Shown here piece by piece: positions 17,195-51,237 of a stretch of 64,000 nucleotides of DNA. Location of the stretch: positions 1,922,001 to 1,986,000 of the forward strand of contig NZ_CP081903.1 in assembly GCF_020091405.1 (NCBI RefSeq), read 5' to 3'. Below the pieces are notes generated by a model. That model was not told the DNA's origin and did no database searches. It saw nothing but the letters and a program-made list of their open reading frames with translations. A program made the position numbers and the translations under genes. This DNA comes from Bacteroides cellulosilyticus (lineage in GTDB: Bacteria > Bacteroidota > Bacteroidia > Bacteroidales > Bacteroidaceae). The first letter of the stretch is position 1; the number at the start of each line of letters is the position of its first letter.

Positions 17195-17197
17195 CAG

Positions 17198-18442: not shown

Positions 18443-18464
18443 GACAGTTCGTTTTATTAGGTCC

Positions 18465-19982: not shown

Positions 19983-20004
19983 AATCGTCATTTATTTAGT
20001 CAGA

Positions 20005-22932: not shown

Positions 22933-22953
22933 GGTTCTTGTATGATTAATTAT

Positions 22954-24069: not shown

Positions 24070-24086
24070 AATGTGTTTCTCCTTCC

Positions 24087-24623
24087 TTATTTGGCAGCAG
24101 GCGCCAGTTCATAATTATATGATATGAATACTTTTCCTTTGGCTGAGCGTGTCAGCTTCAGTCCCAGAATGGCGGTGGAACCGGGCACTGACGAAACAGT
24201 CAGTTGACCTGTTTTCTGACTTTTTGAGGCGTCAGAATACAGATACATTACGGTTGGAGATCCGTCGGTATTGTAGAAATCGTTGCTCAGTTCCCAGTAT
24301 CCGTTGGTGGGGAACAGGGCGGGGGCATCTCCACTTACCTGGAAAGTTGTAGGGCGTCGGCTCTCATCGAGTTGCAGATTGAGCTTGAAGGTGGTGAAAT
24401 CAAAGCTTTGGGTAAGCTCCATGGTGGTGTACTTGGCACCGCTTGCTTTTCCGGCTTCGTCCACTTGTTGCAGAGTGCGCAGGCTCCATGTTCCCTGCAG
24501 TTTTTCGTAAAGAGTGATAGGCTCTACGTAGGAACCATCCTCAGTATCGTTGCAGGCGGTAAATAGGGCACCGGTCATCAACGACAGTAGTAGTAAAGCA
24601 TACAAAGGTTTCAATGCTTTCAT
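24087..24623 (-). CDS. DUF5004-like (lipocalin-type) lipoprotein
   Basis: 178 residues from ATG at 24623 (MKALKPLYALLLLSLMTGALFTACNDTEDG, lipobox FTAC). The longer frame upstream lacks a signal peptide and crosses the 5' leader. After the acidic anchor comes LYEKLQGTWSLRTLQQVDEAG and alternating beta-strand-like segments, which fits the DUF5004/lipocalin-like lipoproteins often found in Bacteroides PULs. It is first in the minus-strand operon, 17 bp before the SusE-position gene. CNDTEDG is acidic after the lipidated Cys, as in surface-exported Bacteroides lipoproteins. Precise role unknown. Confidence 0.7.
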   Translation of the reverse strand: MKALKPLYALLLLSLMTGALFTACNDTEDGSYVEPITLYEKLQGTWSLRTLQQVDEAGKASGAKYTTMELTQSFDFTTFKLNLQLDESRRPTTFQVSGDAPALFPTNGYWELSNDFYNTDGSPTVMYLYSDASKSQKTGQLTVSSVPGSTAILGLKLTRSAKGKVFISYNYELAPAAK

Positions 24624-24713
24624 AGGTTGTAGTTTTTTTAAGTGAATAAATAAATAGGTTAACTCTCTAAAGCAATGCATTGGTCGAGGGAAGGGTTTCT
24701 TCCGGTTGACATT

Positions 24714-26518: not shown

Positions 26519-26562
26519 TGTATTACGTATAGGTTCATGTCTTTTTTTCCTAACGGGGTTCT

Positions 26563-26596
26563 GCAAATGTAGGAGAATAAATTGAAAAATCAATAT
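26563..26596 (-). promoter_or_regulatory. Promoter of the SusR-like gene
   Basis: The minus strand has TACATTTGC (26571-26563) preceded by TTG with exactly 19 bp between them, a good Bacteroides -33/-7 pair. It lies about 45 bp before the start at 26518 and just after the HTCS stop. Confidence 0.75.
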
Positions 26597-26618
26597 CATT
26601 CTGACACTTTGTACTGCC

Positions 26619-30615: not shown

Positions 30616-33063
30616 TTAGAGTTTTTTCAGACGGTCTTTCTTTAGGACCACCTCATATATCTTGCCTTTTGTGGTTTTGAACATGAGTTCATCGTCTCCG
30701 TACTTCACTTTACAGGGAGCTCCTGATTTTGAAAGGAATGTAGCTTTCTCCAACTTGCCCTCTTTCCATGAGATGGAGACCTCAAAATTACCTTTGGCGC
30801 AGATTCCGGTTATCGAACCGTTTCTCCAGGCGTCCGGAAGGGCGGGAAGCAGTTGGATGAATCCCATGTGACTTTGCAACAGCATCTCGGTTACTCCGGC
30901 CGTGCCTCCGAAGTTTCCATCAATCTGGAAAGGAGCGTGCGTGTCCCACAGATTGTCCAGGGTTCCGTTCTTCAGCAGATTACCGTATAATTTATAAGCA
31001 TGGTTTCCATCTTGAAGCCGTGCCCATTGATTGAGTTTCCATCCCATACTCCATCCGGTGGCGCCATCTCCGCGGTGTTCAAGCACTACCCTGGCGGCTT
31101 GGGCCAGTTCGGGGGTGGTTACGGGAGAAATGGTGTGTCCCGGATGTAGTCCGAATAGATGGTTGACGTGGCGGTGTTCATCTTTCGGGTCGTCTATATC
31201 CGAAGACCATTCCAATAGTTGGCCGTAACGTCCTATACGATAGGGAACTAACTTTTCCAGTACATTCTCCCATTCTTTACGTTCGTTGGCGTCTACTCCA
31301 AGCACGCGGCTTGCTTGGATGGCATCCAGCAGTATTTCGCGTACTACGGCATGTGCAAAGGTGACTCCTTCGTCTACCGGCCCGTGCTCGGGTGAGGTGG
31401 AAGGGGCGGCAGTGTAAGTTCCGTCCGGCTTATGCCACAGATGGTCTACCGTGAATTGGGCGCTGCTTTTGATAAGCTCGTATCCTGTTTCTTGCAGGAA
31501 CTTCTTGTCACGGGTGTAGTCGTAATACTCCCAGATATGTGTGGCTAACCAAGGTCCTGCAGTAGGGTTCAGGTTCCACGACATGGCTTCATTGGACAGA
31601 GGCGCTGTAAATCCAAAGATGTTGGCGGATATGGAGGCAGTCCATCCGCGGGCGTTGAAATAGGCTTGGGCTGTCTTCTCACCCGGTTTCACCAAGCTAC
31701 GAATGAAGTCTATCAAAGGCCAGGTGCATTCTGAAAGATTAGTGGAACAAGCGGGCCAATAGTTCATCTGTATGTTGATGTTATTGTGATAATCCACTCT
31801 CCAGGGACCGTCCAGATTGTTGTGCCATATTCCTTGCAGATTTGCGGGCATATTGCCGGGGCGGGAGCTGGCAATGAGCAGATAGCGGCCGAACTGATAG
31901 TACAATTGTTCCAGTTGATAGTCCGGCATGCCTTTCTTATAATTAGCCAGACGTTGGTAAGTCGGCAGATTCGGGCTATTTTCCTCCGGATTGAGTTGCA
32001 GGCGAACCCGGTTGAAAAGGGAGGTGTAGTCGTTTTCATGGTTCCGGTACAATTCATCATATCCTTTCTGTAGGGCTTGGTTCATCATGGCTTGTGTGGT
32101 TTGTTCGGGGTCGTTGCCTACATAAGCTTTTGAATCTTTGAAGTCCGGGTTGAAGTTCATTTTATAGTCCGTATCTGCTGTGAGCAGGAATACCACTTCA
32201 TCGGCATCCTTCACGATGAGGCGGTCATCTTCGGCTTTCAGTGTTCCCCCCTTGTGAATGGCTTTGATGCGGAAGGCAAATTTCATGCCGTTATTGTTGA
32301 GGATTCCGGTGTAGACCAGTCCATTATTCCCGTCTGCCTTGAGATGACTTTTTGCTTCGCTGTTGGGGCAATAGCTGAGTATGAGGTTCTGTTTCCCGGC
32401 CTTGCTGGCTGTGAACTTCATCACCATGACACTGTCCGGATATGATATGAAGTATTTGCGCTGATACTGCGTCCCGTCCTTGTCAAACTGCACCACTGCC
32501 ATAGCGGAATCCAGTGACAGGATGCGGCGGTAATTGTCCATTCTGATTTCACTAAGTCCGGTTTCTATGTAAAGTTCTCCCATAGTAGTAAACGAGCCGA
32601 ATCGGAACGGTGTTTCGTCCTTTTCTTCATAGGCGGCTAATCCGTTGAAGTTCTTTTGAGTGAGTAAGGCTGCCTTCTCTTGGTTACCGTCCAGAAAAGC
32701 CTGTCGGATTTCTTTCAGGACTTCTGCCGATTGTTTGTTGACGTTCCAATAGTAATCGGCTCCTTTGGCCGTATTAGGTCCTCCTTTCCAGAGGGTTTTT
32801 TCGTTGAGGGTGATTCGCTCGGCGGATATGGAACCTAAGATGTTGGCTCCCAGACTACCGTTTCCGATGGGTAGTGAGCGGCTTTCCCATGCCCGGTCGG
32901 GGTTGGCTCTTAATCCGGAAGCACGCAGCCAGATGGCTTGTCCGTCCAGGTTGTTGGGGGTGTCGAACCAAATGGAGAGTCCTTGAGTGTAATCGGTCGT
33001 TCCTATTGCCGAGGCGGATAAGGAGAAGAACATGTAGATAAAGAAGGATTGGAGCTTTTTCAT
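30616..33063 (-). CDS. GH95 alpha-L-fucosidase (or alpha-L-galactosidase)
   Basis: 815 residues with a signal peptide ending SASAIG. An N-terminal beta-domain (WESRSLPIGNGSLGANILGSISAERITLNEKTLWKGGPN) is the GH95 hallmark. The (alpha/alpha)6 barrel carries NNINIQMNYWPACSTNLSE, with the Asn residues that assist catalysis, TSPEHGP with E559 as predicted general acid, and APFQIDGNFGGTAGVTEML with D715. GH95 enzymes remove alpha-1,2-linked L-fucose from host glycans or fucosylated plant glycans by inversion; a minority act on L-galactose. A weak version of the direct-repeat element of the nearby mucin-type PUL lies about 150 bp upstream, suggesting joint control. Confidence 0.93.
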   Translation of the reverse strand: MKKLQSFFIYMFFSLSASAIGTTDYTQGLSIWFDTPNNLDGQAIWLRASGLRANPDRAWESRSLPIGNGSLGANILGSISAERITLNEKTLWKGGPNTAKGADYYWNVNKQSAEVLKEIRQAFLDGNQEKAALLTQKNFNGLAAYEEKDETPFRFGSFTTMGELYIETGLSEIRMDNYRRILSLDSAMAVVQFDKDGTQYQRKYFISYPDSVMVMKFTASKAGKQNLILSYCPNSEAKSHLKADGNNGLVYTGILNNNGMKFAFRIKAIHKGGTLKAEDDRLIVKDADEVVFLLTADTDYKMNFNPDFKDSKAYVGNDPEQTTQAMMNQALQKGYDELYRNHENDYTSLFNRVRLQLNPEENSPNLPTYQRLANYKKGMPDYQLEQLYYQFGRYLLIASSRPGNMPANLQGIWHNNLDGPWRVDYHNNINIQMNYWPACSTNLSECTWPLIDFIRSLVKPGEKTAQAYFNARGWTASISANIFGFTAPLSNEAMSWNLNPTAGPWLATHIWEYYDYTRDKKFLQETGYELIKSSAQFTVDHLWHKPDGTYTAAPSTSPEHGPVDEGVTFAHAVVREILLDAIQASRVLGVDANERKEWENVLEKLVPYRIGRYGQLLEWSSDIDDPKDEHRHVNHLFGLHPGHTISPVTTPELAQAARVVLEHRGDGATGWSMGWKLNQWARLQDGNHAYKLYGNLLKNGTLDNLWDTHAPFQIDGNFGGTAGVTEMLLQSHMGFIQLLPALPDAWRNGSITGICAKGNFEVSISWKEGKLEKATFLSKSGAPCKVKYGDDELMFKTTKGKIYEVVLKKDRLKKL

Positions 33064-33198
33064 ACTATTATTTTTGTTGTTTAAAGGATTTTCTGTCAGC
33101 GAAACAGGTACATAAAAGTAATATGCCGCCAGTCACAATATTGAGTACAAAAATACGGGTTCTCTTTTATCTGCGTCACAAAAACAGCGTGTTATTTC

Positions 33199-33233
33199 TT
33201 TCAATTTTATCCAATATGCTTTCAAAAATCACT
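33199..33233 (-). promoter_or_regulatory. Possible regulator-binding direct repeat upstream of GH95
   Basis: On the minus strand GTGATTTTTGAA (33232-33221) equals 12 bases of the repeat at 40348-40361. At the same 21-bp register, 33212-33199 reads GGATAAAATTGAAA, which keeps the GG start and TTGAA end of the repeat. The second copy is degenerate, so this is tentative. Confidence 0.35.
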
Positions 33234-33338
33234 AAAAGAGTGTGAGATGTCCGGCGTTGAGGGAACGGCTTGTCCTGGCTGGGGGGGTGGAGAGATTTAC
33301 CTTGCGGTATATCCACTGAATAAATCCTTTGTTATTGC

Positions 33339-33368
33339 TTGGAATTCAACATTTTCCCCTTACCTTTG
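33339..33368 (+). promoter_or_regulatory. Promoter of the Rpn-family gene
   Basis: TTG (33339-33341) and TACCTTTG (33361-33368) are separated by 19 bp. Transcription would start around 33375, which excludes the upstream ATGs at 33329 and 33374 and agrees with the ATG at 33407, preceded by AAAGGAG at 33391-33397, one of the few clear Shine-Dalgarno sequences in this window. Confidence 0.75.
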
Positions 33369-33406
33369 TTATCATGAAAACAAAACAAGAGAAAGGAGAC
33401 GAAATT

Positions 33407-34309
33407 ATGGCAAGTAATTATATTCGTTTCGATTGGGCTATGAAGCGTTTATTGCGCAATAAAGCCAATTTCGGGGTACTCGAAGGACTTCTGACTACCC
33501 TGTTGAAAGAGACTATCACGATTCAAAAACTATTGGAAAGCGAAAGTAATCAGGAGGATGAATTTGATAAGTATAATCGCGTGGATATGCTTGCTGAGAA
33601 CTCCAAAGGCGAGCTTATTCTGATTGAAGTCCAAAACAATAACGAATATGCTTATTTCCAGCGGATGTTGTTCGGCACTTCAAAGTTGGTAACCGAATAC
33701 ATTAATCGCGGAGAAGGCTACGATAAGGTGCGCAAAGTGTATAGTATCAATATTGTATACTTCTCTTTAGGCAGCGGAAAGGATATTGTATATCATGGGA
33801 AAACGGAATTTCGGGGGATACATGAAGGTGATGTACTGGAACTGACTCCTTTCCAGAAACAAACTTTTAAAGTGGACCACGTAAGCCAGCTTTATCCTGA
33901 GTATTATATCCTAAAAGTGAATGACTTTAATCAAGTGGCCAAAAGTCCTCTTGAAGAGTGGATCTATTATCTGAATACAGGGAATATCCCTGATACCGCT
34001 ACGGCACCAGGTTTGCATGAAGCTCGCGAACGATTGACTCTGGATAGAATGAAGAAAGATGAACTGGGTGCTTATTATCGGCATCTGGATAACATCGTTA
34101 TTCTTCGTGATAATATATTCACAGAGCGTGCTGAAGGTAGAGCTGAAGGTAGAGCTGAAGGTCGTGAAGAAGGCCGTGAAGAAGGTCGTGAAGAAGGTCG
34201 TGAAGAAGAACGTGTAGCCAATGCCCGTAAAATGAAGCTTAGAGGATTGGATAACATTATGATTTCCGATATTACCGGTCTGCCTATTGAAGATATTGAT
34301 AAACTATAA
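33407..34309 (+). CDS. Rpn family / PD-(D/E)XK nuclease-family (transposase-like) protein
   Basis: 300 residues from ATG at 33407, chosen for its AAAGGAG and the promoter position. It begins NYIRFDWAMKRLLRNKANFGVLEGLLTTLL and carries RVDMLAENSKGELILIEVQNNNEYAYFQRMLFGTSKL, the PD-(D/E)XK-type core of Rpn/YhgA-like proteins (D...ExQ), predicted DNA endonucleases that promote recombination. Residues ~242-269 are AEGR x3, EEGR x3, EEER, a charged coiled-coil tail common in this family. No terminal inverted repeats were seen around it, so it is not obviously inside an insertion sequence. It has its own promoter and terminator and is unrelated to the PUL genes on either side. Confidence 0.88.
   Translation: MASNYIRFDWAMKRLLRNKANFGVLEGLLTTLLKETITIQKLLESESNQEDEFDKYNRVDMLAENSKGELILIEVQNNNEYAYFQRMLFGTSKLVTEYINRGEGYDKVRKVYSINIVYFSLGSGKDIVYHGKTEFRGIHEGDVLELTPFQKQTFKVDHVSQLYPEYYILKVNDFNQVAKSPLEEWIYYLNTGNIPDTATAPGLHEARERLTLDRMKKDELGAYYRHLDNIVILRDNIFTERAEGRAEGRAEGREEGREEGREEGREEERVANARKMKLRGLDNIMISDITGLPIEDIDKL
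34130..34213 (+). repeat. In-frame 12-bp tandem repeat in the nuclease gene
   Basis: Seven 12-bp units encode AEGR (3), EEGR (3) and EEER (1). Because units are a multiple of three, copy-number change by slippage would lengthen or shorten the tail without breaking the frame. Confidence 0.9.
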
Positions 34310-34380: not shown

Positions 34381-34680
34381 ATATATGGGTAAGGCAACTG
34401 CTAAGCCTTTTTTATTTCATTGCTTGCCTATCAGGATCTATTTTGTTAGGCATTATTTTTTCATTCAACCATAGTTATTCTTGCGTTATACTATAGTTAT
34501 CCGCAAGGAATACTATAGTTACCCTTGCGTTATACTATAGTAGAACGAATAAAGAATAGGCAATGAAGAAAGTCTTATTGGGCAATGAAGGAAGTTAGAA
34601 TAGCATCCTTACGGAGAATCTGTTGTGGCGTCTTGTGTTCATACGTTTGGTTTAAAACGGTGAAATACCCTATTCTTAGT
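34381..34680. other. Intergenic region with 22-bp array B
   Basis: About 300 bp with no plausible gene. It contains array B (34471-34540), then A/T-rich sequence leading to the conserved upstream element at 34681. Confidence 0.6.
34471..34540. repeat. Array B: 22-bp tandem units with inverted core
   Basis: Units at 34471, 34493 and 34515, then a partial unit from 34537. Each unit starts ATAGTTA and ends ATACT, so every junction forms the palindrome ACTATAGT. The core of units 1 and 3 contains CTTGCG while unit 2 contains CGCAAG, its reverse complement. Same 22-bp period as arrays A and C but a different sequence. Confidence 0.85.
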
Positions 34681-34762
34681 GATGAAACGGTCGTTTTTGG
34701 CGATTTCGAATATTAATGTGGTGATTCTTGAATGCCGGTCTGATAATGGCTTCATAACTTTG
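34681..34762 (+). promoter_or_regulatory. Conserved upstream element 1: direct repeats + -7 box
   Basis: It starts GATGAAACGG and carries GGCGATTTCGAAT (34699) and GGTGATTCTTGAAT (34720), 21 bp apart, then TAACTTTG (34755-34762) as -7 box. It aligns nearly base for base with 40330-40413. No -33 TTTG at standard spacing, so activator dependence is likely. The gene starts 27 bp after the -7 box. Confidence 0.75.
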
Positions 34763-34789
34763 TCGCGTTAACATTGAATTGAATACGCT

Positions 34790-36826
34790 ATGAAGACAAA
34801 ATTTCTATTGGTTTCTATTAGTTTCTTTTTCTTTTTGATTTCATGCCGTCCTTATCCTGATAAAGTAGAGCAAGCGTTAATACTTTCGGGTAATCATAAA
34901 GAAGAACTGATTAAAGTTTTAGAATATTATAGGGATAAAGACGACTTAAAGTTTGATGCAGCTTGTTTTCTGATTGGCAATATGCCCTATCACAAAAGTA
35001 AAATTCAGCAGGAACTTCCTGCTGCCTACTACTGCTATTTTAGAAAGATAGACTCCATCTGTCGTACAGATTCGGATGCTGTTAAAGACGAATCTTTGAA
35101 ACGTTGTTTAGGGAAAATTTTTGATTCTATTCCTATTCCGCTTGAAACTCAAAGTAAACCGGATATTCAATTCCTTTCGGCAGACTATCTGATAGATAAT
35201 ATTGAACTTGCTTTTGATGAATGGCAGAGTTCTGCTTTGTTAAGACAACTTTCTTTTGATGATTTTAAAGAGTGGATACTTCCTTATCGGACTGTAGATG
35301 AATCGCTGGTGGATGATAAACGAACTTTGAGGTCTATCATTTTTGAGAGGCTGACAGAAGAGGGTATGACTGATATACGTAAGCCTATTGATTGCTATCG
35401 GAAATATGTAAGGTTGCAAAAAGAAATGAATGATTATATAACCTCTTCGCATCATGTTGGCCCATTTGATCCATTTATTCCTGCTTTTAAAATGGATTGT
35501 CATAATTTAGCGGCGAGGACATGCAACTATTTTCGTGCATGTGGCATTCCCGTAGTATATGAGTTTACCCCTCAATGGCCGGATAAAGATAGTAAGCACT
35601 ATTGGTGTGCTTCGCCTGATTCTAATCATGTATTGCAACCTTATACTCCACCTTATAATAACTTAAGGGAAGATTGGGATTCTAATCTGAAATATGTGGG
35701 AAAGGTATTTCAAAGAACATTTGGTGCTATTGAAAATTCCCCCTATTTCCTTAAAAATAAAGGTGAGATTGTTCCATCTTATTTTGATGTTGCTACTATA
35801 AAGGATGTCACTGAGCGATATCATTTGTGCAAAGCCCTGACTATTCCTATAAAATGTAATTCGCCCAATAATCTGGCATATTTATCTTTTTTCAATACAA
35901 AGGAAAACCTAATGCCTGTGGCATGGGGCGAAGTAAATAAGTGCAAACGTTCGGTGACATTTCTTCAGGTACCTGTCAATATGCTTTTCTTTCCCACTTA
36001 TATGTCGGAAGATGGAGGGCTCTCCTGTTTCGGCAACCCTTTTATTTTTAGATATGATAGCGTTACGAAACAAGTTGTCTGTAAAGAGGCGGGGAAGGAG
36101 ACCGGAGTAAAGATTCCGATGCACTTGTTGCGTAAATATCCCTCCAAGAAACATTTGGATGAATCCAGAAAAACTTTGCAGGGGGCACACTTACTGGGTG
36201 CTGATGATTGGGATGGACCTTATGACACTCTTTTTGTTATTAAAAATGTCCCGGGACCCTATTGGCAAGAGTATTGCTTTAGTAATCTGCATAAATACCG
36301 TTATTATCGCTTTGCTCCTAAAGATGGATTACCCATGGACATTGCCGAGTTTGAATTTCTTGGCAAGAAAGATACTAAACACTCATATAGTATTCCGACT
36401 AAACTTCCTGTTTTCTCAAAGGCGATGGAGAATGTCGAATCAGATGAATATATGAAGGTAGAGGGTACTCCTATGAAAACCGGCCCGCTTTATTCTAATT
36501 TCTTTGATGGGGATCCGGAGACTTACACTCGGTGGGGGTATCTTGGAATGGACTTTAAATCGCCTGTTTGTGTTTCTCGAATAAGGTTACTTCCACGAAC
36601 GGCACTGAATATGATTGAACCTAGTCAACGTTATCAATTATTGTATTTTAAAGATGGGAGCTGGATCGAACATGCAATACTCGTTTCCAGATATAATTAT
36701 CTGGATATTGATTCAGTTCCTGCCGGAACAGTGTATTGGTTGCGGAATCTTGATAAAGGAAACGAGGAATTGCCTTTCTTTTATGAAAATGGGAAGCAAA
36801 TATTTATAAACCGATATACGCAATAA
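34790..36826 (+). CDS. Transglutaminase-like lipoprotein with C-terminal discoidin (F5/8 type C-like) domain
   Basis: 678 residues, lipobox LISC (MKTKFLLVSISFFFFLISCRPY). Residues ~20-220 are helical and unassigned. About 225-290 reads FKMDCHNLAARTCNYFRACGIPVVYEFTPQWPDKDSKHYWCASPD: C237, H270 and D277 fit a transglutaminase-like Cys-His-Asp centre. A beta-rich middle follows, then about 500-670 a discoidin-like domain (GPLYSNFFDGDPETYTRWGYLGMDFKSPVCVSRIRLLPR). The residues after the lipidated Cys are not acidic, so it may face the periplasm. First gene of the three-gene unit, visibly more A/T-rich than the PUL genes. Protease, peptide ligase or non-enzymatic roles are all possible; function unknown. 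Confidence 0.75.
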   Translation: MKTKFLLVSISFFFFLISCRPYPDKVEQALILSGNHKEELIKVLEYYRDKDDLKFDAACFLIGNMPYHKSKIQQELPAAYYCYFRKIDSICRTDSDAVKDESLKRCLGKIFDSIPIPLETQSKPDIQFLSADYLIDNIELAFDEWQSSALLRQLSFDDFKEWILPYRTVDESLVDDKRTLRSIIFERLTEEGMTDIRKPIDCYRKYVRLQKEMNDYITSSHHVGPFDPFIPAFKMDCHNLAARTCNYFRACGIPVVYEFTPQWPDKDSKHYWCASPDSNHVLQPYTPPYNNLREDWDSNLKYVGKVFQRTFGAIENSPYFLKNKGEIVPSYFDVATIKDVTERYHLCKALTIPIKCNSPNNLAYLSFFNTKENLMPVAWGEVNKCKRSVTFLQVPVNMLFFPTYMSEDGGLSCFGNPFIFRYDSVTKQVVCKEAGKETGVKIPMHLLRKYPSKKHLDESRKTLQGAHLLGADDWDGPYDTLFVIKNVPGPYWQEYCFSNLHKYRYYRFAPKDGLPMDIAEFEFLGKKDTKHSYSIPTKLPVFSKAMENVESDEYMKVEGTPMKTGPLYSNFFDGDPETYTRWGYLGMDFKSPVCVSRIRLLPRTALNMIEPSQRYQLLYFKDGSWIEHAILVSRYNYLDIDSVPAGTVYWLRNLDKGNEELPFFYENGKQIFINRYTQ

Positions 36827-36835
36827 GAAAGTCTG

Positions 36836-38554
36836 ATGGGTATGTTGCTACTAAATGAAAATATGATAACCTTTCTGAGTGAAGCATTCCGTTCTTCGAT
36901 ATTTGTAGTTACTTTGCTAGGAATTGGAGCGGGACTATACGTCTTTTTGAGCAAGATAAAATCACTTGTTTTCTTCAATTGGGTAGATGTGTTTGTTTCA
37001 GTTGTGGCGTTGGGCTATTATTTCTTCCACTTTTCTGTTTCCAATTTGTGGACGATGGGCACTTTCTCCCTCCTCCTTATTTATTGGGCGATCCGGCTTA
37101 TTCCCCGGTTGCCTTATGGCTTTTTGTATTTCGGGCTACTGGCGAGTACTTTTATATTGGCACTTACCGGCTATTTGCAATATGCCGGAATTGTTTCGGC
37201 GAATCATCCTTATTTTGCGGTAACCGGTCCTTATGACAGTCCGGCTATCTATGGAGGCGTGATGTGTTTGTTGTTAAGTATCCTTTTTACTTGGTGTCTG
37301 CATACAGGCTATCGGAAGCACTACAAGTTTCTTTATATAATCACGGTTTTAATGGGAATTATTTGTTTGCCGGTATTTATCATTATCGGTTGCCGGGCGG
37401 CATGGGTCGCTCTTTTGATGGTTGTTGCCCGTTCTGTATACCTGTCTCGTTTTCGTTGTGGCAATGATTTTTTTGCCTGGTTTCGTTCTCATGCCGTTTT
37501 TCGGGTTTTGATACCTCTTCTCATTATCCTTTCCGTTTATGGACTTTACCGGTTTAAACCGGATTCTGCTGACGGAAGAATACTGATATGGAAAGTTACG
37601 CTAGGTATGGTAAAAGAGAAACCGTTAACCGGATTCGGCCCGGGAGGATTCACTGCCCATTATATGCATTACCAAGCCTCTTATTTGGAGGAAGGGGGGA
37701 CGCCTCGCGAAAGATTTCTGGCTGATAGTAACCATTTGGTATATAATGAGCCTTTACGTTTGATGGTAGACTACGGGGTGGCAGGTTTCTTATTATACGC
37801 CTGTTTCTTATACATTGCGCTAATCATTCCCCGCAAAAAAGATGTGGTAACTTTATCAGCCCAATCGCTTTTAACGGGCTATTTAATTTGGGGTTTATTT
37901 GCTTATCCCGATCAGACGTTCCCTATGCAGGTAATTGCTCTGATAGCCTTGGCATGTTTATCTCATCGTTGCAGGAAGCCTCTTTGGGTTTTCCGGTTAG
38001 CTGCTCGCACCTGTAAAGTTTTGCAGATGGTTCTGCTGATAGCTGCAATAGGACTTGCCTTTACATTTACGGAGAAATATAGGTGTCATCGGAAATTCTA
38101 TCAGATCATGAACGCTTACTCTTCAAACCGATTGGATGAGTCCGTTAAGGAATTAGCAACGATGGAGAGTATAATGCAGGATGAATCGGCTTATTGGATA
38201 TATTATTGTATGCTTCTGAATAAGATAAAGTCCGATTCGGTCCTATTGGATAAGATAGTCAGATGGGAAGAATTATATCCTACTCCCGACACTTATATTA
38301 TGAAGGGGGACCTTTGGCAGCGCATGGGGCAGTATGACAAGGCAGAAACCGCATACTTGCTTGCCAATTGGATGGTACCCTCGCGACAGCGTGCCCGTAG
38401 TAGGTTAGCGTTACTTTATCGGAGATTAGGACGGAATGAAGAAGCGATGTGCATAGCTCATGAAATTCTGACTGAAAAGGTCAAAGTCTACGGATTTCAG
38501 ACTCATAAGATACATGAGGAATTAAAACGGATTTTCGAAAATCAAATTAAATAA
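36836..38554 (+). CDS. O-antigen ligase/polymerase-like (Wzy_C superfamily) membrane protein with TPR tail
   Basis: 572 residues. About 10-11 membrane helices fill the first ~415 residues. The large periplasmic loop holds LTGFGPGGFTAHYMHYQASYL and ADSNHLVYNEPLRLMVDYGVAGFLL, the pattern of the O-antigen ligase/Wzy/PglL superfamily, which transfers lipid-linked glycans to lipid A, to growing polymer or, in PglL-type enzymes, to protein. The C-terminal ~130 residues are soluble and TPR-like (YIMKGDLWQRMGQYDKAETAYLLANWMV, SRLALLYRRLGRNEEAMCIAHEIL). It starts 9 bp after the transglutaminase-like gene. There are no glycosyltransferases next to it, so it is not part of an ordinary surface-polysaccharide locus. 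A protein-glycosylating role toward its neighbours is a hypothesis. Confidence 0.8.
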   Translation: MGMLLLNENMITFLSEAFRSSIFVVTLLGIGAGLYVFLSKIKSLVFFNWVDVFVSVVALGYYFFHFSVSNLWTMGTFSLLLIYWAIRLIPRLPYGFLYFGLLASTFILALTGYLQYAGIVSANHPYFAVTGPYDSPAIYGGVMCLLLSILFTWCLHTGYRKHYKFLYIITVLMGIICLPVFIIIGCRAAWVALLMVVARSVYLSRFRCGNDFFAWFRSHAVFRVLIPLLIILSVYGLYRFKPDSADGRILIWKVTLGMVKEKPLTGFGPGGFTAHYMHYQASYLEEGGTPRERFLADSNHLVYNEPLRLMVDYGVAGFLLYACFLYIALIIPRKKDVVTLSAQSLLTGYLIWGLFAYPDQTFPMQVIALIALACLSHRCRKPLWVFRLAARTCKVLQMVLLIAAIGLAFTFTEKYRCHRKFYQIMNAYSSNRLDESVKELATMESIMQDESAYWIYYCMLLNKIKSDSVLLDKIVRWEELYPTPDTYIMKGDLWQRMGQYDKAETAYLLANWMVPSRQRARSRLALLYRRLGRNEEAMCIAHEILTEKVKVYGFQTHKIHEELKRIFENQIK

Positions 38555-38580
38555 ATTATTAACTTAAAAAACAAAGACTT

Positions 38581-40125
38581 ATGAAAAACAAGAAACTGCA
38601 AAGAAGATTGTATTTTCTGGGAGGATTATTCCTCTTGAGCTTTTTGATTTATTCGTGTCTATCGGATGAAACATTCTCCGGTAGCGATGATAAATCGGAA
38701 GATGAATCCGTATTAGGAGAAAATACGGAACTAACTGTTTCAAAGGCGGAACTGTGGTATAATGCCAATAATCCGCAAGTTACGAAACTTCGTTTCTCTA
38801 ATTTTCAAGAAGAAATTCTAATCAGACCTCAATGGTCGAAAGCAAAGGAGCGCCGAAAGGGTGATTGTGAAATAGTGGAAACGCCTTTATTGGTGGATGG
38901 AAGTGCTATTTTTATGGATTCGGAAACCTTAAAAAATGATTTAAAAATCAGTCAGAAGAAAATCCGGAACATTGTGCGGTTAATAGTCAGAAAGGATTTG
39001 AAGACCGGGCAGACACGCGACTTCATTATGATAATAAGAGGATCGTATGATTATTTGGCGAAAACGAATCGTTTAGGATATAATAATTATTTCCATCGTG
39101 AACCGGATTTTGATGGAGATATTTATTTCTATGAGGTAGGGCAAGGTCTGAGGAATGGATTTGAATTTCAATCTGGGAAATTGGTAGCGACCATTGCGCT
39201 TGGAATGGAAGAAAATTGTAATACTCGGACTAATGTACATTATTTAGAGGATTGTTACTTAAGGTATATAGACGTTGTAACAGGAGAATATTGTGACGAT
39301 AATGTTAGTGGAGATGCTGAATTTGGAGGTTCTTTTTCTGTATGTGAAACTAATTATCGTACAGAGATTGTGCAGATTTGCCCTGGTGACCCTGTGCCGA
39401 TAGAACCTTGGGAACCTGGACCTTGGGGGCCACATGATGATTCAGACTCTCACCCGCCAGTGTCTCCTGCTTGCGCTAAATCGGATGAGATGACTGATGA
39501 TAATGTGTTCTTGGTTAAGATGTTTAATATATTTTCTGCTCCTTTAAATTGGAAAGATGAAGCACAGTTAAAGAATATCTTGAGTAGCGGTAGTGGAGAC
39601 TATACGGAATGGATGGGGATAACAGATAATTATCATCATGAGATTCGTCCGAGTGTATATAAAGGTGGAGTAAGACTCTTATTCAAGGAAGAACAACTAG
39701 AAGGTAAGGTTTTTGATGAATGGTACCATATTCAAGCTCTTCCGGGGATAGGTATCCCTTTACTATATGACTTGAAAGAATTAGGAGTACAATTCCAAAA
39801 AGGTAGAATAAAAACAGACAACTTTGTTTATGGAATAATATCCCAATATGGATGTCTATGTATGATGATTACTAGTGCTGGTGAATTTGATAGGTTTACA
39901 TATGCATTGAAAAGGGGAGAATTAGATGCGGAATATAATAAATGTATTCAGGAAGGGAATGGTAAGCCCGAGAAACAGAGAATAGGGTTGTTTATAAAAT
40001 TCCTTGAAGATAACTATGCTGGTCTAACCTTTATATATGGTTATCCTGATCCTAATAATTTTAAAGGATTCTATGCGCAGACTATTGATTCTGATAATAT
40101 TATGATAAATGATTCCTGTGAATAG
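38581..40125 (+). CDS. Modular surface-type lipoprotein of unknown function with Pro-rich hinge
   Basis: 514 residues, lipobox IYSC (Cys26). The tail after the anchor is strongly acidic (LSDETFSGSDDKSEDES), like the export signal of surface lipoproteins in Bacteroides. The N-terminal module (~45-255) reads TVSKAELWYNANNP, RPQWSKAKERRKGDCEIVETPLL, NIVRLIVRKDLKTGQTRDFIMII. Then comes a Cys/Pro-rich hinge at ~266-298 (CPGDPVPIEPWEPGPWGPH) and a C-terminal module (~300-514) with no family I recognise, including ISQYGCLCMMITSAGEFDRF. The leader-module-hinge-variable tail plan resembles Bacteroidota secreted proteins whose C-terminal domains vary, possibly toxins or enzymes, but nothing here proves this. 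Last gene of the unit, A/T-rich. Confidence 0.7.
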   Translation: MKNKKLQRRLYFLGGLFLLSFLIYSCLSDETFSGSDDKSEDESVLGENTELTVSKAELWYNANNPQVTKLRFSNFQEEILIRPQWSKAKERRKGDCEIVETPLLVDGSAIFMDSETLKNDLKISQKKIRNIVRLIVRKDLKTGQTRDFIMIIRGSYDYLAKTNRLGYNNYFHREPDFDGDIYFYEVGQGLRNGFEFQSGKLVATIALGMEENCNTRTNVHYLEDCYLRYIDVVTGEYCDDNVSGDAEFGGSFSVCETNYRTEIVQICPGDPVPIEPWEPGPWGPHDDSDSHPPVSPACAKSDEMTDDNVFLVKMFNIFSAPLNWKDEAQLKNILSSGSGDYTEWMGITDNYHHEIRPSVYKGGVRLLFKEEQLEGKVFDEWYHIQALPGIGIPLLYDLKELGVQFQKGRIKTDNFVYGIISQYGCLCMMITSAGEFDRFTYALKRGELDAEYNKCIQEGNGKPEKQRIGLFIKFLEDNYAGLTFIYGYPDPNNFKGFYAQTIDSDNIMINDSCE

Positions 40126-40329
40126 CAATATTGGAGTTACTACGTATTAGTCAGTGGAAAAGGATGCGGAGAAAATACATATAATATGTTGTGTTTTCTC
40201 CGCTCTTATTATTAAATGGAAAATAGAATTTGGATAGAATTAAGTATTTTTATTCTATTTGCTTTTTTGGTTACTTGTTTCGAAATCTTCAATTTTGATT
40301 GTTCTCTCTGCGAATATCGTCACTTTTTC
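40126..40329. other. Intergenic region after the three-gene unit
   Basis: Contains the terminator at 40166-40210 and then about 120 bp of A/T-rich sequence with no gene before the second conserved element. Confidence 0.6.
40166..40210 (+). terminator. Terminator of the three-gene unit
   Basis: GCGGAGAAAATAC (40166-40178) pairs with GTGTTTTCTCCGC (40191-40203), one G-T pair, 12-nt loop, followed by T-rich sequence. It isolates the unit from the PUL at 40531, so both need their own promoters. Confidence 0.85.
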
Positions 40330-40413
40330 GATGAAACGGGCGCTTCTGGTGATTTTTGAATATTAATCGGTGATTTTTGAATGCCCTTCTCGTTATTCCT
40401 GCTTTACATTTGC
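40330..40413 (+). promoter_or_regulatory. Conserved upstream element 2: perfect 14-bp direct repeats + -7 box
   Basis: GGTGATTTTTGAAT occurs at 40348-40361 and again at 40369-40382, identical copies 21 bp apart (two helical turns, same face). TACATTTGC (40405-40413) follows after 22 bp. The block starts with GATGAAACGG, as in the element at 34681. This is the promoter region of the SusC/SusD/GH16 operon and looks like an AraC-type (HTCS) activator site. Confidence 0.8.
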
Positions 40414-40530: not shown

Positions 40531-43500
40531 ATGAAAAGAAAGAAGCTTATGAAAAAACAAAGCTGCTTTGTTGTTCTTCTGATGCTCCTCCTGTTATTAT
40601 CTCCGAGAGCGTTCGCACAGCAACAAATGATTAAAGGACAAGTGCTGGACAACACTGGTGAAACCGTTATCGGCGCTACAGTCATGGTAAAAGGGACGGA
40701 GAATGGTACGCTGACCGACATTGACGGTAACTTCTCCATTCAAGGTAAGGTCGGCAGCACGCTGGTCATCTCTTTTATCGGTTATACCCCTCTTGAAGTC
40801 AAGGTGACGAAACTTGACGGTAATCGCTTCACATTGAAAGAAGATGTGCATCTGCTGGATGAAGTTGTTGTGGTAGGTATGGGGCAACAAAAACGTAGCA
40901 CCATTACGGCTGCTGTGTCTACGGTAAGTTCCGATGCTATTGTCAACCGTCCGATAACTGACCTTACCAGTGCCCTTCAAGGTAACGTGGCTGGTTTGAA
41001 CTTTGCCACGGATGCCGTTTCCGATGGTGTGGGTGGTGAAACAGGTGCCGAAATCAAATTCAATATCCGTGGTATAGGTTCCATCAATGGAGGCGAACCT
41101 TACGTACTGGTAGATGGAATTGAACAAAGCATGCAGAATGTAAATCCTAATGATATTGAAAGTATCAGTGTGTTGAAGGATGCTTCGGCTGCTGCCGTCT
41201 ACGGAGCTCGTGCCGCCTATGGTGTGGTATTGGTCACCACCAAGAGTGGGCGGAAGGAGAAAATGCAGGTCTCTTATCGTGGAACATTCGGCTTCAGTGC
41301 GCCTATCAATATGCCGAATATGATGAACTCAGTTGAATTTGCTAATTATGTGAACGAACGTTGCGACAATATGGGCGTGAAACATAAAATCTCTGACGCG
41401 CTTATTGAAAAGATGGAAGGATTTATGAAGAGTCCTTATTCTGCTGAGTTCCCGGGGATCGACCCCAATCAAAATAAAACGGACTGGGCTTCTTCAATGG
41501 ATGCGGTATATGCCAATACAGACTGGTTTGATCATTATTTTAAAAGCACCACTATGCGTCATTCACATAACCTGAGTGTGATGGGAGGTTCGGATAAAAT
41601 CAATTACTATGTGGGGCTGGGATATATTTATCAGGAAGGTCTGTTAGACAAAGTGGATGATAACCTCAGTAAATATAATGTGAATACGAAATTTGAAATT
41701 AAGGCTAAAGAATGGTTAAAGTTCAACTTCAATAATAACATCACATTGAATATTTTGAAACGCCCGATGCCTAATCAAACTATTTTCTATGCTACTCTTG
41801 GGAAAAGTCTTCCGAATGCCCCTACTCACTATCCGGTGGCCTCGCAGTATAACGATGCCTCAGAATTTAGGTATATGAAAGAATCACGCTACGTGCAGAA
41901 CCGTATATCTGATGCAATGTCTTTCTCCGCTACTGTTACCCCATTGCTGGGTTGGGATATTATGGGGGAAATGAAAGTTCGTTTCGATGTGGAAGATAAC
42001 AGCTTTAAGCGTGGATACCCTGCTTATGAGAAGCCTGATGGAGAATTGCAAGTGTATAAAGATACTCAACAAGGATATACCTATCCGGGGATGAATTGGC
42101 GAAGTTCTAAATGGGGTTCTTATACTCATGGCAATGCATTCAATTATTATCTGTCTCCGAATGTAATGTCCTCTTATGCCCATAGCTGGGGTGAACATTC
42201 TTTCAAGGCGATGGCAGGTTTCCAGATGGAGATGCAGGAAAACTCTAATGGATACTATTATGTAGATGGGCTTTTGTCCAGTGATATATTTTCAATTGCC
42301 AATGGCAATGGTAGCACTGCTATAGGAGAAGATCGTACCCACTGGGCTACGATGGGTATGTATGCCCGAATGAACTGGAACTATCAGGATACGTATTTTT
42401 TGGAATTCAGTGGACGTTATGACGGTTCTTCCCGTTTTGCTCCGGGGCACCGTTGGGGATTCTTTCCTTCTTTCTCTGCTGGTTATGATATTGCCCGTAC
42501 AAATTATTTCAAGGAGTTGGATCTTCCGTTTTCTCAATTAAAGGTACGTGTTTCTTACGGACGTTTAGGTAATCAGAATGGTGCCGGACTTTATGATTAT
42601 CTTGGAATCATGGATTTAGTTCCCGGTTCAAGCGATGCATGGATATTACCAGGGCTAAATCCTGTTCCTGCTCAAGGGGTACTTGCTAAAACGCCTAAGA
42701 TGATCAGTCCTTATATCACATGGGAAAAGGTAGATAATGCTAATTTAGGTATCGACCTGATGCTTCTGGATAGTCGGCTTTCTGTTACTGCCGATTTCTA
42801 TCAGCGTACGACGCGTGATATGATTGGCCCGGCTGAAGCAACTCCGGCCATTGGAGGTATTAGTAAGGATAATCGTGCCAAAGTGAATAATGCAACGTTG
42901 CGTAACCGTGGTTGGGAGTTATCCGTTAATTGGAATGATGAGCTGAAGTGTGGCTTTAGCTATGGTGTCGGATTCAATGTGTCCAATTATAAAGCTGTGA
43001 TTACGAAGTACAATAATCCGGATGGAGTGCTTTATAATAATCATACAGGTCTGGCACGTAACAGAGGATATTATGAAGGAATGGATATAGGCGAAATCTG
43101 GGGATACGAGGCCGACGATCTTTTTATGACCAACCGTGAAGTGGATGAATACCTCAAAACGGTAGATCTCAGTTTCTTTAAAGCCGATAACCTATGGCAA
43201 CGTGGTGACTTGAAGTATATTGATTCCAATGGCGATGGAAAGGTAGACCCGGGTAAAGGTACTCTGTCCGACCATGGAGATCTGAAGGTTATCGGTAATG
43301 CGACTCCTAAATACTCTTTCGGTATCAATCTGAATGCAGGATATAAAGGATTTGAAGTATCTGCCCTCTTCCAGGGAGTTGCCAAAAGACAGTTCCCGAT
43401 GGCAGGTGGTAATTATTTATATGGTGGCGACTGCTACTTCAAAGAACATCTTGACCATTTCAGTGCTCAACAGCCTGACGCATACTTACCGCGCTTGGTT

Positions 43501-43854
43501 GACACGAATACCCAGGACTTTGAAGCGAATACTGGTTATAACACAACCCGCTATTTGCTGAATGCAGCCTATATACGTTTGAAGAATTTGATGGTATCTT
43601 ATACTTTTAAACCTCAAATGCTGAAAAGTATCGGACTGAGTAATTTGAAAGTATATCTCACTTGCGATAATCTGTTCACAATTTCTAAATTACCGCAACA
43701 GTTTGACCCGGAAACTATTAATCAGGTGAATAGTTGGGTCGGAGGTAGTAATGATGCCGCCCCTGCATTGACCTCACCTTTGAAAGCTAATGGTAACGGC
43801 AGGGTTTATCCAATGAACAGGAACTTCGTATTTGGAATTGATGTCACATTTTAA
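40531..43854 (+). CDS. SusC-like TonB-dependent transporter
   Basis: 1107 residues from ATG at 40531; a TTG at 40510 extends the frame but there is no reason to use it. Signal peptide ends SPRAFAQQ. Carboxypeptidase-regulatory-like domain at ~32-105 (IKGQVLDNTGETVIGATVMVKG), LLDEVVVVGMGQQKRSTITAAVSTV, plug with FNIRGIGSINGGEPYVLVDGIEQ and SISVLKDASAAAVYGARAAYGVVLVTT, barrel ending FGIDVTF. No STN domain. The long leader from the predicted start near 40420 to 40531 contains no obvious structure. First gene of the GH16/GH20 PUL; pairs with the SusD 16 bp downstream. Confidence 0.97.
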   Translation: MKRKKLMKKQSCFVVLLMLLLLLSPRAFAQQQMIKGQVLDNTGETVIGATVMVKGTENGTLTDIDGNFSIQGKVGSTLVISFIGYTPLEVKVTKLDGNRFTLKEDVHLLDEVVVVGMGQQKRSTITAAVSTVSSDAIVNRPITDLTSALQGNVAGLNFATDAVSDGVGGETGAEIKFNIRGIGSINGGEPYVLVDGIEQSMQNVNPNDIESISVLKDASAAAVYGARAAYGVVLVTTKSGRKEKMQVSYRGTFGFSAPINMPNMMNSVEFANYVNERCDNMGVKHKISDALIEKMEGFMKSPYSAEFPGIDPNQNKTDWASSMDAVYANTDWFDHYFKSTTMRHSHNLSVMGGSDKINYYVGLGYIYQEGLLDKVDDNLSKYNVNTKFEIKAKEWLKFNFNNNITLNILKRPMPNQTIFYATLGKSLPNAPTHYPVASQYNDASEFRYMKESRYVQNRISDAMSFSATVTPLLGWDIMGEMKVRFDVEDNSFKRGYPAYEKPDGELQVYKDTQQGYTYPGMNWRSSKWGSYTHGNAFNYYLSPNVMSSYAHSWGEHSFKAMAGFQMEMQENSNGYYYVDGLLSSDIFSIANGNGSTAIGEDRTHWATMGMYARMNWNYQDTYFLEFSGRYDGSSRFAPGHRWGFFPSFSAGYDIARTNYFKELDLPFSQLKVRVSYGRLGNQNGAGLYDYLGIMDLVPGSSDAWILPGLNPVPAQGVLAKTPKMISPYITWEKVDNANLGIDLMLLDSRLSVTADFYQRTTRDMIGPAEATPAIGGISKDNRAKVNNATLRNRGWELSVNWNDELKCGFSYGVGFNVSNYKAVITKYNNPDGVLYNNHTGLARNRGYYEGMDIGEIWGYEADDLFMTNREVDEYLKTVDLSFFKADNLWQRGDLKYIDSNGDGKVDPGKGTLSDHGDLKVIGNATPKYSFGINLNAGYKGFEVSALFQGVAKRQFPMAGGNYLYGGDCYFKEHLDHFSAQQPDAYLPRLVDTNTQDFEANTGYNTTRYLLNAAYIRLKNLMVSYTFKPQMLKSIGLSNLKVYLTCDNLFTISKLPQQFDPETINQVNSWVGGSNDAAPALTSPLKANGNGRVYPMNRNFVFGIDVTF

Positions 43855-43870
43855 TTAGAGAGGAAATATC

Positions 43871-45724
43871 ATGAAAAAGAAAATAATCATCCTAACAGCT
43901 TTTATGGGGCTGATGTTGTCCGCTTGCTCCGATTTTCTGGACCGGAAGCCGTTGACGCAGCCTGATAACACGAATTTCCTGTCAGGTCGTGAACAGGTAG
44001 AGAACTATATTAACGCTTTATATACAGCATTGGCGGTTCCCACGCAATTTGGAATGGGAGTCAGAGGCGAAGAAGTGAATAGCGATAACATTTTGGCGGA
44101 GAAGTATGACAGACGTTTGAATGGTGAAAATACTCTGTTCAGTGGTTCGGATAGTTGGTCGAAAGGCTATCAGAATTTGCGTAATGTCAACTATTTCTTT
44201 GAGTATTACAAAGTTCCTGAAACTTTGGAAACAGCCGAAGTTCGTTCGCTCAAAGGAGAAGCTTACTTCTTCCGTGCTTATTGGCATTTCTATTTACTCA
44301 CCCGTTTTGGCGATATACCCGTTATGGATGGATTCTGGGACGCGAATGCAACGGTCGAGGGATTACAAATACCCGCTACCAAACGTTCGGATGTTGTCCG
44401 GTTTATATTGAATGACCTGAAGGCAGCCATCGGACAAATTCCGGAGGCACGGGCAGAACTGCTTCCTCGTGGTAAATATCAAGGATTGCGGGTCAGTAAA
44501 GAGGCTGCCACTATTCTGGCTATGCGGGTTGCGCTCTATGAAGGTTCGTGGGAGAAGTATCATAAAGGGACTGAATTTGCTAAGGAAGATAACTCCGCAG
44601 AGTTTTTTCAGGAAGTGTTGGACTGGGGTGACCAGCAATTATTCTCTTCAGGCTTGGCTCTGAATACGAAAGCGACGGATAAAGAGGCTATTAATACGGA
44701 GGATGCTTTTGCACATTTATTTAATAAGGATAATCTTTCCGAAATTTCTGAGGCTGTCTTATGGAAGAAGTATGATATTAATTCTGGTATTTTCCACAAA
44801 CTGAGCTCTTTGCTTGCTGCAGGTGTAGTAGACGGTCAAGGCCCTTCAGGCTTGTCAAAATCGTTGGTAGATAACTTTTTGAATGCAGATGGCACTTTTA
44901 TTGACCCCAACGACGAGAAATTCAAGGATTTCAATAAGACGTTTGAAGGACGGGATGCGAGATTGCTGGTGACTGTGATGCATAGTGGATGCAAATACCG
45001 TTCATCATTAGCTTCCAGTTCGTCGAAACCGATGAATGTGCGAGCCTATGATGAAACGGGCAGCGAAGAAGAAGTTAAGGAAAAGAATGCCGATATCGTA
45101 TCTCCTAACCTGAATGGTGATGGCAATAGCAAGAGTGTGACCGGATTCCATATTCGTTTAGGCATTGATACGACTTATGTGGCTGATAACTCTCAGACGG
45201 GTATCATTTTATTTCGTTATGCAGAAGGTTTGCTTTGCTATGCGGAGGCTGCAGAAGAACTAAATAAATGTGATGATAGTGTGTTAGAGAAAACATTGAA
45301 GCCACTACGCGAAAGAGCGGGAGTGACGTATGTGAAACCGACTTTGGTTGACCCGAACTTCCCCTTTACCGGACTTACTCCCGTGTTGCAGGAGATCCGT
45401 CGTGAAAGGCGTTCGGAGCTCTCTCTTCAGGGATTCCGCCTGGACGACTTGATGCGTTGGGCGGGTGCCGATGTACTAAAAGGAGCAAAGGGGCGTGGCA
45501 GAGGTGCCTATCTGGGCGAAGATGGCATTCTGTATAAGAGTTTCTCACCTGATGGACGCAAATCATTAAAACTGGTATTGAAAGATAATGATGGCTGGAT
45601 GGATCCATTGAAAGAATATCTGCCCGAAGGATATCTTTTCAATCTGAATCGGGATTACTTGATGCCGATACCGGCTGATGAATTACTGATGAACCACAAG
45701 ATGATACAAAATCCGGGTTGGTAA
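43871..45724 (+). CDS. SusD-like surface glycan-binding lipoprotein
   Basis: 617 residues, lipobox LSACSDF. SusD/RagB traits: LKGEAYFFRAYWHFYLLTRFGDIPVMDGFWD, SKEAATILAMRVALYEGSWEKYHKG, IILFRYAEGLLCYAEAAEEL, and IRRERRSELSLQGFRLDDLMRWAGADVLKGAKGRGRGAYLGEDG, then YLMPIPADELLMN near the end. Outer-membrane partner of the SusC upstream for glycans later cut by the GH16, GH20 and GH-D-like enzymes of the same operon. Confidence 0.96.
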   Translation: MKKKIIILTAFMGLMLSACSDFLDRKPLTQPDNTNFLSGREQVENYINALYTALAVPTQFGMGVRGEEVNSDNILAEKYDRRLNGENTLFSGSDSWSKGYQNLRNVNYFFEYYKVPETLETAEVRSLKGEAYFFRAYWHFYLLTRFGDIPVMDGFWDANATVEGLQIPATKRSDVVRFILNDLKAAIGQIPEARAELLPRGKYQGLRVSKEAATILAMRVALYEGSWEKYHKGTEFAKEDNSAEFFQEVLDWGDQQLFSSGLALNTKATDKEAINTEDAFAHLFNKDNLSEISEAVLWKKYDINSGIFHKLSSLLAAGVVDGQGPSGLSKSLVDNFLNADGTFIDPNDEKFKDFNKTFEGRDARLLVTVMHSGCKYRSSLASSSSKPMNVRAYDETGSEEEVKEKNADIVSPNLNGDGNSKSVTGFHIRLGIDTTYVADNSQTGIILFRYAEGLLCYAEAAEELNKCDDSVLEKTLKPLRERAGVTYVKPTLVDPNFPFTGLTPVLQEIRRERRSELSLQGFRLDDLMRWAGADVLKGAKGRGRGAYLGEDGILYKSFSPDGRKSLKLVLKDNDGWMDPLKEYLPEGYLFNLNRDYLMPIPADELLMNHKMIQNPGW

Positions 45725-45770
45725 AAATACGGATGAATAAATATTTAATTTCTAAATAAACCATATTGTT

Positions 45771-47645: not shown

Positions 47646-47662
47646 TAGGTAGTTTTATTATA

Positions 47663-47713
47663 AATCATCCGGGAGGAGGGCTCATCGGAGTTCTCTCCCG
47701 GATGATTCTTTTT
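47663..47713 (+). terminator. Terminator/attenuator between GH16 and GH20
   Basis: AATCATCCGGGAG (47663-47675) pairs with CTCCCGGATGATT (47695-47707) and is followed by CTTTTT. It lies 18 bp after the GH16 stop and 13 bp before the GH20 start, so it probably lowers expression of the three downstream genes relative to SusC/SusD/GH16. Confidence 0.88.
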
Positions 47714-47725
47714 AACCCGATTGCC

Positions 47726-50050: not shown

Positions 50051-50080
50051 AAGCCGGAAATATAAAACAGATTTTTTACA

Positions 50081-51208: not shown

Positions 51209-51237
51209 TGAAATGATAATTATTCAAGTAAGATAGT

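Follow-up and report, generated by a model that had tools for sequence, protein, structure and literature searches.

A predicted three-promoter HTCS regulon in Bacteroides cellulosilyticus that includes a transglutaminase-like/Wzy_C gene unit

In the portion of the study by Ravcheev et al. (2013, PMC3878776) available to us, the operators of hybrid two-component systems (HTCSs) are described as direct repeats averaging 21 bp, which lie before the operons of polysaccharide utilization loci (PULs) beside the HTCS gene, with some distant members. Binding of HTCS response regulators to susCD promoters has been observed by electrophoretic mobility shift assay for BT4124 and BT4663 (PMC11253607, in its accessible part). 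Here we describe a 64,000-nucleotide stretch of Bacteroides cellulosilyticus (the window; bases 1922001-1986000 of a one-contig genome of 6.94 Mb), in which three related elements of this layout, at 34681 and 40330 (sites 1 and 2) and at 33194-33237 on the minus strand, very probably are the operators of one HTCS encoded at 26619-30554 and define a predicted regulon of three promoters. These promoters belong to a PUL, to a unit of a GH95 gene and the HTCS gene itself, and to a three-gene unit that encodes a transglutaminase-like lipoprotein (TGl), an O-antigen ligase-like membrane protein (Wzy_C) and a further lipoprotein (LP3).

The repeat layout is common to the operators of Ravcheev et al. 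and to those of the window, the comparison with the 16 motifs of that work being one of layout and not of letters. The operator architecture is already known, and the new part is the membership of the TGl/Wzy_C cassette and its recurrence: the regulons described in that portion consist of glycan-use genes, whereas the one predicted here includes the TGl/Wzy_C unit. The regulator at 26619 is of the same class as BT4124 and BT4663 (PMC11253607, as above) but is a different HTCS, and its binding is a prediction. The operators of SusR, as given in the available portion of PMC3878776, are direct repeats as well, with predicted centers 67 or 77 bp apart in place of the 21 bp seen here.

Matching elements before the three-gene unit and the PUL

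The initial annotation had proposed that near-identical upstream elements of about 80 bp join the three-gene unit and the PUL into one regulon. The likeness is real, with 48 of 57 columns identical in the local alignment of site 1 with site 2 (a 1-nt gap on each side; score 65), its extent being about 57 bp rather than 80. For comparison, 2000 dinucleotide-shuffled pairs gave a mean of 17.9 and a maximum of 31, and the best unrelated tile of the window scores 29. Direct repeats exactly 21 bp apart are present in both sites as had been claimed, the two 14-mers of site 2 at 40348 and 40369 being identical; the claim needs amendment for site 1, where the first repeat (GGCGATTTCGAAT) is one base short and an extra spacer base compensates. 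The general -7 box of Bacteroides is TANNTTTG, and promoters of this kind follow a distance rule for the -33 box. In both promoters (34790 and 40531) a -7 box lies at a kept distance past the start of repeat 2 (35 or 36 bp; Table 1), and reading of the sequence revealed no TTTG at the usual -33 distance, in agreement with the earlier description of a -7 box without a good -33. The stretch between element and box keeps its length in the two sites, not its letters.

A search of the whole genome for repeat pairs 21 bp apart, as foreseen in the initial annotation, recovered sites 1 and 2 as the only matches to GGYGATT-N14-GGYGATT at zero mismatch; with at most one mismatch there are 15 matches (sites 1 and 2 included) versus seven for the reversed control. 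A BLAST-type nucleotide search of 99 genomes of the genus with the 106-bp element returned only site 2 of the window and missed site 1, since the elements are too diverged, and the IUPAC pattern with at most one mismatch matched five of 158 genomes (two sites in the own genome and one in each of four others). Because the operator letters change with the HTCS, sequence models were used in place of the pattern. The plasmid collection yielded no match to 34650-34800. A ACTATAGTTA-type repeat with 22-bp spacing was also observed just upstream of site 1, in three 30-nt copies (34468-34541).

Recurrence beside orthologous regulators and genome-wide specificity

Orthologs of the HTCS, taken as genes with at least 70% identity, were sought in 74 other genomes of the genus with eight candidates scored per genome, and 13 were recovered from 11 of them. 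Up to 20 kb on each side of these genes (less at contig ends) was compared by means of a first matrix whose seed was site 2 together with the SusC promoters beside four orthologs. The element lies before the PUL in all 13 neighborhoods, including nine outside the matrix seed that score 25 to 59, and the top score elsewhere in the compared stretches, the sites discussed here aside, is 14.3. The gene behind it is of the SusC type in seven cases and of the GH18 type in six, the latter label being given by BLAST to genes that Pfam names GH18. At all 23 ortholog sites (13 first promoters and ten inner copies) repeat 2 is 35 or 36 bp from TANNTTTG, the spacing of the inner sites being less independent than that of the first promoters because the presence of a box partly guided their choice. 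A GATGAAAYGG-like box of the GATGAAACGG type (40330-40339 in the window) stands 18 bp before repeat 1 at all 13 first promoters, with small variations; among the inner promoters it was seen at two of ten, in a weak form (TGAAACAG).

The similarity of the motifs tracks the similarity of the AraC-type helix-turn-helix (HTH) domains, the comparison being a single split within a set of close relatives. Helices of the types (V/L)GRSSLYNKLK and TTPSYFSTAF mark the HTCSs of the window, G085a and G123a (genomes and loci are cited by our G and L designations), which are accompanied by GGTGA-type PUL operators; the other eleven, G085b and G123b among them, have GMSRASLYNKLK and TTSRYFST helices and first-promoter operators of the AGA(C/T)A type.

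A model built from the 23 ortholog sites only (R1) was run on 75 genomes with strict filters that can miss weak sites. It recovered the 23 training sites and 24 untrained ones at E<=1e-5, and it finds site 2 genome-wide with an E of 3.6e-5. The next gene behind the untrained matches is GH2-type in six cases, GH18-type in six, sulfatase-type in five and SusC-type in five, so that 22 of 24 precede such genes and the element is not one that occurs before many unrelated genes; these labels rest on Pfam for at least one example of each non-SusC kind and on BLAST or first residues for the rest. The remaining two precede the TGl unit of G085 and a mechanosensitive-channel gene, the latter match being partial (59 of 73 positions) and 308 bp before the gene. 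At L141 of the own genome (1.008-1.0215 Mb) a GH2 gene preceded by an R1-type operator is found together with an HTCS paralog (51%), and related operators may serve paralogous HTCSs.

A second model (R2) was trained on seven GGTGA-type sites, site 1 not being among them. Over the whole genome it ranked site 2 and the GH95 site (both trained) first and then the held-out site 1 (E 0.08), followed by a match elsewhere at E 0.44. Within the window, run without filters, it gave site 1 16.6 bits and the next stretch 6.9. In a register-locked control over 165 other promoter boxes of the compared loci ten outscore site 1, all of them also reported by R1 (E<=1.1e-4), with which the register-locked model shares training sites.

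The association of the operator with the three-gene unit recurs away from the PUL. In G085, a second species, the unit with all three genes is found at 6.75 Mb, the nearer orthologous HTCS being 0.65 Mb away. Its operator is outside the R1 training set (E 2.3e-6) and has a register-locked score of 42.4, which is above all 165 other boxes. The box that follows this operator at the standard distance is CATATTTG, which differs from TANNTTTG by one letter. The operator letters are of the AGA(C/T)A type, and G085 possesses HTCSs of both groups; site 1 belongs to the GGTGA type, like the HTCS that adjoins it. Upstream of the TGl homolog of B. salyersiae, matching repeats lie 35 bp before TACTTTTG and score -2.3, with ten of the 165 boxes higher, all ten again reported by R1. 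This unit is predicted to carry an operator too, rated only as probable because R1 does not itself report the site. Taken together with the 13 of 13 ortholog neighborhoods, the helix covariation and the held-out match of site 1, the G085 unit supports the earlier prediction that an operator of an AraC-type HTCS joins the unit and the PUL.

A regulon of two promoters, as previously drawn, appears too narrow, in that a third and more diverged copy of the operator is present before GH95 (Table 1). Orthologous copies precede GH95 in G085 and G123; these and the window copy were chosen by position and alignment and were then placed in the training set of R2. The GH95 operator of G090, outside that set, was recovered by R2 with an E of 1.3e-7. 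In G090 the GH95 behind the operator is truncated (residues 1-212), and the last ~145 residues of the HTCS follow as a remnant; this locus (L172, G090:C11:874200-886200) and L143 represent a decaying copy of the window locus, with a SusC lacking a single reading frame. The GH95 box spacings (46, 57 or 26 bp) are in rough helical phase with 36 bp. GH95 and the HTCS gene are codirectional and 61 bp apart, and the HTCS may therefore raise its own expression, i.e. the third operator suggests a predicted autoregulation.

The three-gene unit, its relatives and the surrounding locus

In an alignment of 13 TGl sequences C237 and H270 are invariant and D277 is nearly so, and these residues could form a transglutaminase-like Cys-His-Asp triad. 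Profile comparison of TGl recovered a structure deposited as carbohydrate binding family 6, which we take to be CBM62 (E 2.6e-19), a CBM32 structure (E 0.0035), and, as a weak match, the transglutaminase-like structure 3isr (E 0.25). Pfam gave no match for TGl, the AlphaFold model from two sequences has a pLDDT of 35, and LP3 is without a recognized domain in the domain searches. The designation of the unit as a non-PUL gene set is correct to the extent that it has neither SusCD nor a known glycosidase, yet TGl looks like a lipoprotein that bears carbohydrate-binding modules.

Of 75 genomes of the genus, 58 contain a TGl relative at E<=0.001. The own genome has two with more than 50% identity over their length, G085 and B. 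salyersiae have a single one apiece, and among 299 genomes of the family a match at E<=1e-100 was confined to the own genome and G124. The distant relatives of the own genome (L104, L107, L108, L109, L110) lie in recurrent clusters, four of the five with a Wzy_C relative nearby, and in L104 and L107 Pfam-confirmed NVEALA peptides (PF14055) are found near them. L107 also encodes a 6-bladed propeller protein (Pfam) and a signal peptidase I (NCBIfam). The unit of the window resembles these clusters in its combination of TGl with Wzy_C, and differs in that no NVEALA peptide was recognized beside it by pattern search; this search of short frames, which variants may escape, covered the window, L103, L105 and L018 without a match. 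A Peptidase_C39-like frame at the corresponding place in B. salyersiae was considered as an LP3 relative and rejected, tblastn giving no significant match (best E 0.29, elsewhere in the locus). Literature searches found no paper with the term NVEALA, nothing relevant on transglutaminase-like proteins with O-antigen ligases in Bacteroides glycan use (an Akkermansia paper and an unrelated mucin paper were returned), and no title about a TGl-Wzy_C-LP3 unit among those on HTCS regulons.

Table 1. Operators, promoter boxes and genes of the locus (window coordinates)
Feature	Position	Strand	Details
Operator copy 1 (site 1)	34681-34736	plus	GATGAAACGG; repeat 1 GGCGATTTCGAAT 34699-34711; repeat 2 GGTGATTCTTGAAT 34720-34733
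-7 box of three-gene unit	34755-34762	plus	TAACTTTG; 35 bp past start of repeat 2
Operator copy 2 (site 2)	40330-40385	plus	GATGAAACGG 40330-40339; GGTGATTTTTGAAT repeats 40348-40361, 40369-40382
-7 box of PUL operon	40405-40412	plus	TACATTTG; 36 bp past start of repeat 2
Operator copy 3, before GH95	33194-33237	minus	AGTGATTTTTGAAA 33220-33233, GGATAAAATTGAAA 33199-33212, 21 bp apart
Possible GH95 -7 box	33148-33155	minus	TATTTTTG; 57 bp past repeat 2; read from sequence
Alternative, poorer GH95 box	33179-33186	minus	TGTTTTTG; 26 bp past repeat 2
SusR-family regulator	24902-26734	minus	SusR-like DUF6377 protein; NF058541
HTCS, proposed regulator	26619-30554	minus	Reg_prop, Y_Y_Y, HisKA, HATPase, receiver, AraC-type HTH (domain search)
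GH95	30616-33063	minus	Domain search
PDDEXK_2 protein	33329-34309	plus	
Three-gene unit	34790-40125	plus	TGl-Wzy_C-LP3
TGl	34790-36826	plus	Transglutaminase-like lipoprotein, 678 aa; Cys237/His270/Asp277; C-terminal CBM62/CBM32-like modules
Wzy_C	36836-38554	plus	O-antigen ligase-like membrane protein, C-terminal TPR
LP3	38581-40125	plus	Lipoprotein of unknown function, 514 aa
Hairpin, probable terminator of three-gene unit	40166-40203	plus	Weak T-run; folding versus shuffles
PUL genes	40531-54117	plus	One direction; SusC, SusD, DUF5006/DUF5014 protein, GH20, DUF5009/NagX-like, 959-aa protein

The terminator placed at 40166 in the initial annotation corresponds to a hairpin that is much better folded than shuffles (z -4.2 for the stretch 40126-40240); its T-run is weak and it is absent from the output of a simple terminator scan. 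A GH16 had been assigned to the PUL, and Pfam detects no such domain in its six genes. The DUF5009/NagX-like protein scores under the NagX cut-off, and the 959-aa protein displays a weak similarity to alpha-galactosidases. On the other side of the HTCS gene, the frame listed for the SusR-family gene overlaps that of the HTCS, and a second cluster beside this regulator (15179-24680) encodes GH97, a GH99/GH71-like protein and SusD.

Alternative explanations and the proposed regulon

Several results weigh against the assignment of all three elements to the HTCS at 26619. The covariation comes from close relatives that divide only once, and in the GMSRASLYNKLK/TTSRYFST group GG is likewise the start of many inner-promoter sites; therefore, it supports the assignment without proving it. 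In the genome, R1 reports neither site 1 nor the GH95 site at E<=0.1, and in a run on 12 sources (232 kb) site 1 is absent at E<=10 and the GH95 site has an E of 0.61. R2 gives matches of E 0.048-0.056 outside known sites in G123, G090 and G012, which makes the held-out value of site 1 weak when taken alone; what gives it weight is where site 1 stands, with GH95 on one side, the PUL on the other and a box at the expected distance. The first matrix gives the GH95 copies scores no higher than noise (8.7, 8.1 and -3.3), and their repeat-to-box spacing varies, being 57 bp here and 46 bp in G085, G123 and G090. The 52% TGl paralog of the own genome (L103) is without an operator (-38.7, with 95 of 165 boxes as good), and none was found at the five more distant TGl promoters scored (G124, G086, L104, L107, L110), the last three belonging to NVEALA-type clusters and differing in this respect from the window unit.

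It is unlikely that site 1 is a relic, that is, a copy of the PUL promoter duplicated at the insertion of the unit and devoid of a regulatory role. Such an origin would fit the presence of the GATGAAACGG box of PUL first promoters in site 1, which the operators of the G085 TGl unit and of GH95 lack, as well as the two copies flanking the unit and the fact that relatives differ in what lies between the PUL promoter and the HTCS or GH95. However, the repeats, their 21-bp spacing and the distance to the box are kept despite the diverged stretch between element and box, and the TGl unit of G085 has its own operator at an unrelated place, as probably does that of B. salyersiae. A generic promoter feature of Bacteroides or a chance likeness, to which the general nature of the TANNTTTG box and the weak matches yielded by AT-rich intergenic DNA might point, is extremely improbable, being largely contradicted by the shuffles, the genome counts, the held-out R2 match and the register-locked control. 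It is also very unlikely that the element is bound by another regulator, either the SusR-like DUF6377 protein, whose gene (NF058541) adjoins that of the HTCS, or one of the HTCS paralogs (51-55% identical; 1.01 and 5.13 Mb), the first of which has a related operator nearby; the element recurs beside orthologs of 26619, and the HTH covaries with it. The SusR-like neighbor is disfavored, and was ruled out as a candidate, because of the repeat spacing, which is 21 bp here as in the average HTCS motif, in contrast to the 67 or 77 bp predicted for SusR (available portion of PMC3878776).

The elements, their recurrence beside orthologous HTCS genes, their fixed spacing, the HTH covariation and the gene types that follow the matches across 75 genomes are results of the sequence comparison; that the HTCS at 26619 binds and activates, which glycan it senses and how the unit came to be inserted are inferences. 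The HTCS would sense a host-type oligosaccharide and become phosphorylated, such an inducer being suggested by GH20 and GH95 and by the genes for GH18, GH2 and sulfatases that follow related operators. Its AraC-type domain would then bind both tandem repeats, two turns apart on the same face of the helix, and activate promoters that have a -7 box 35 or 36 bp past the start of repeat 2 and no good -33. The GH95-HTCS unit, the SusC-GH20 PUL and the TGl-Wzy_C-LP3 unit could thereby be switched on jointly. Flanking of the three-gene unit by PUL-promoter copies (34681 and 40330) suggests promoter capture, and in the simplest history the unit would have been inserted beside the PUL, between it and the PDDEXK gene, and be driven by a copy of the PUL promoter.

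A more speculative scenario, doubtful in our estimation, is that the TGl/Wzy_C cassette, kin of NVEALA-cluster components and bearing galactose-type carbohydrate-binding modules, was recruited to a host-glycan HTCS regulon to attack the peptide of mucin-type glycoproteins as their glycans are removed by the PUL. Recruitment would have come about by PUL-promoter capture in the own genome and in trans in others, and, if this were true, one sensor would coordinate the attack on glycan and peptide.

Thus, a testable operator, its likely regulator and three target promoters are available within one window. The covariation also offers a lead on the relationship between the recognition helices of HTCSs and the letters of their operators, which could help assign sites to other HTCSs. 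Finally, the prediction ties one branch of an uncharacterized lipoprotein family to growth on a host-type glycan, which would be a first condition under which to seek its function.

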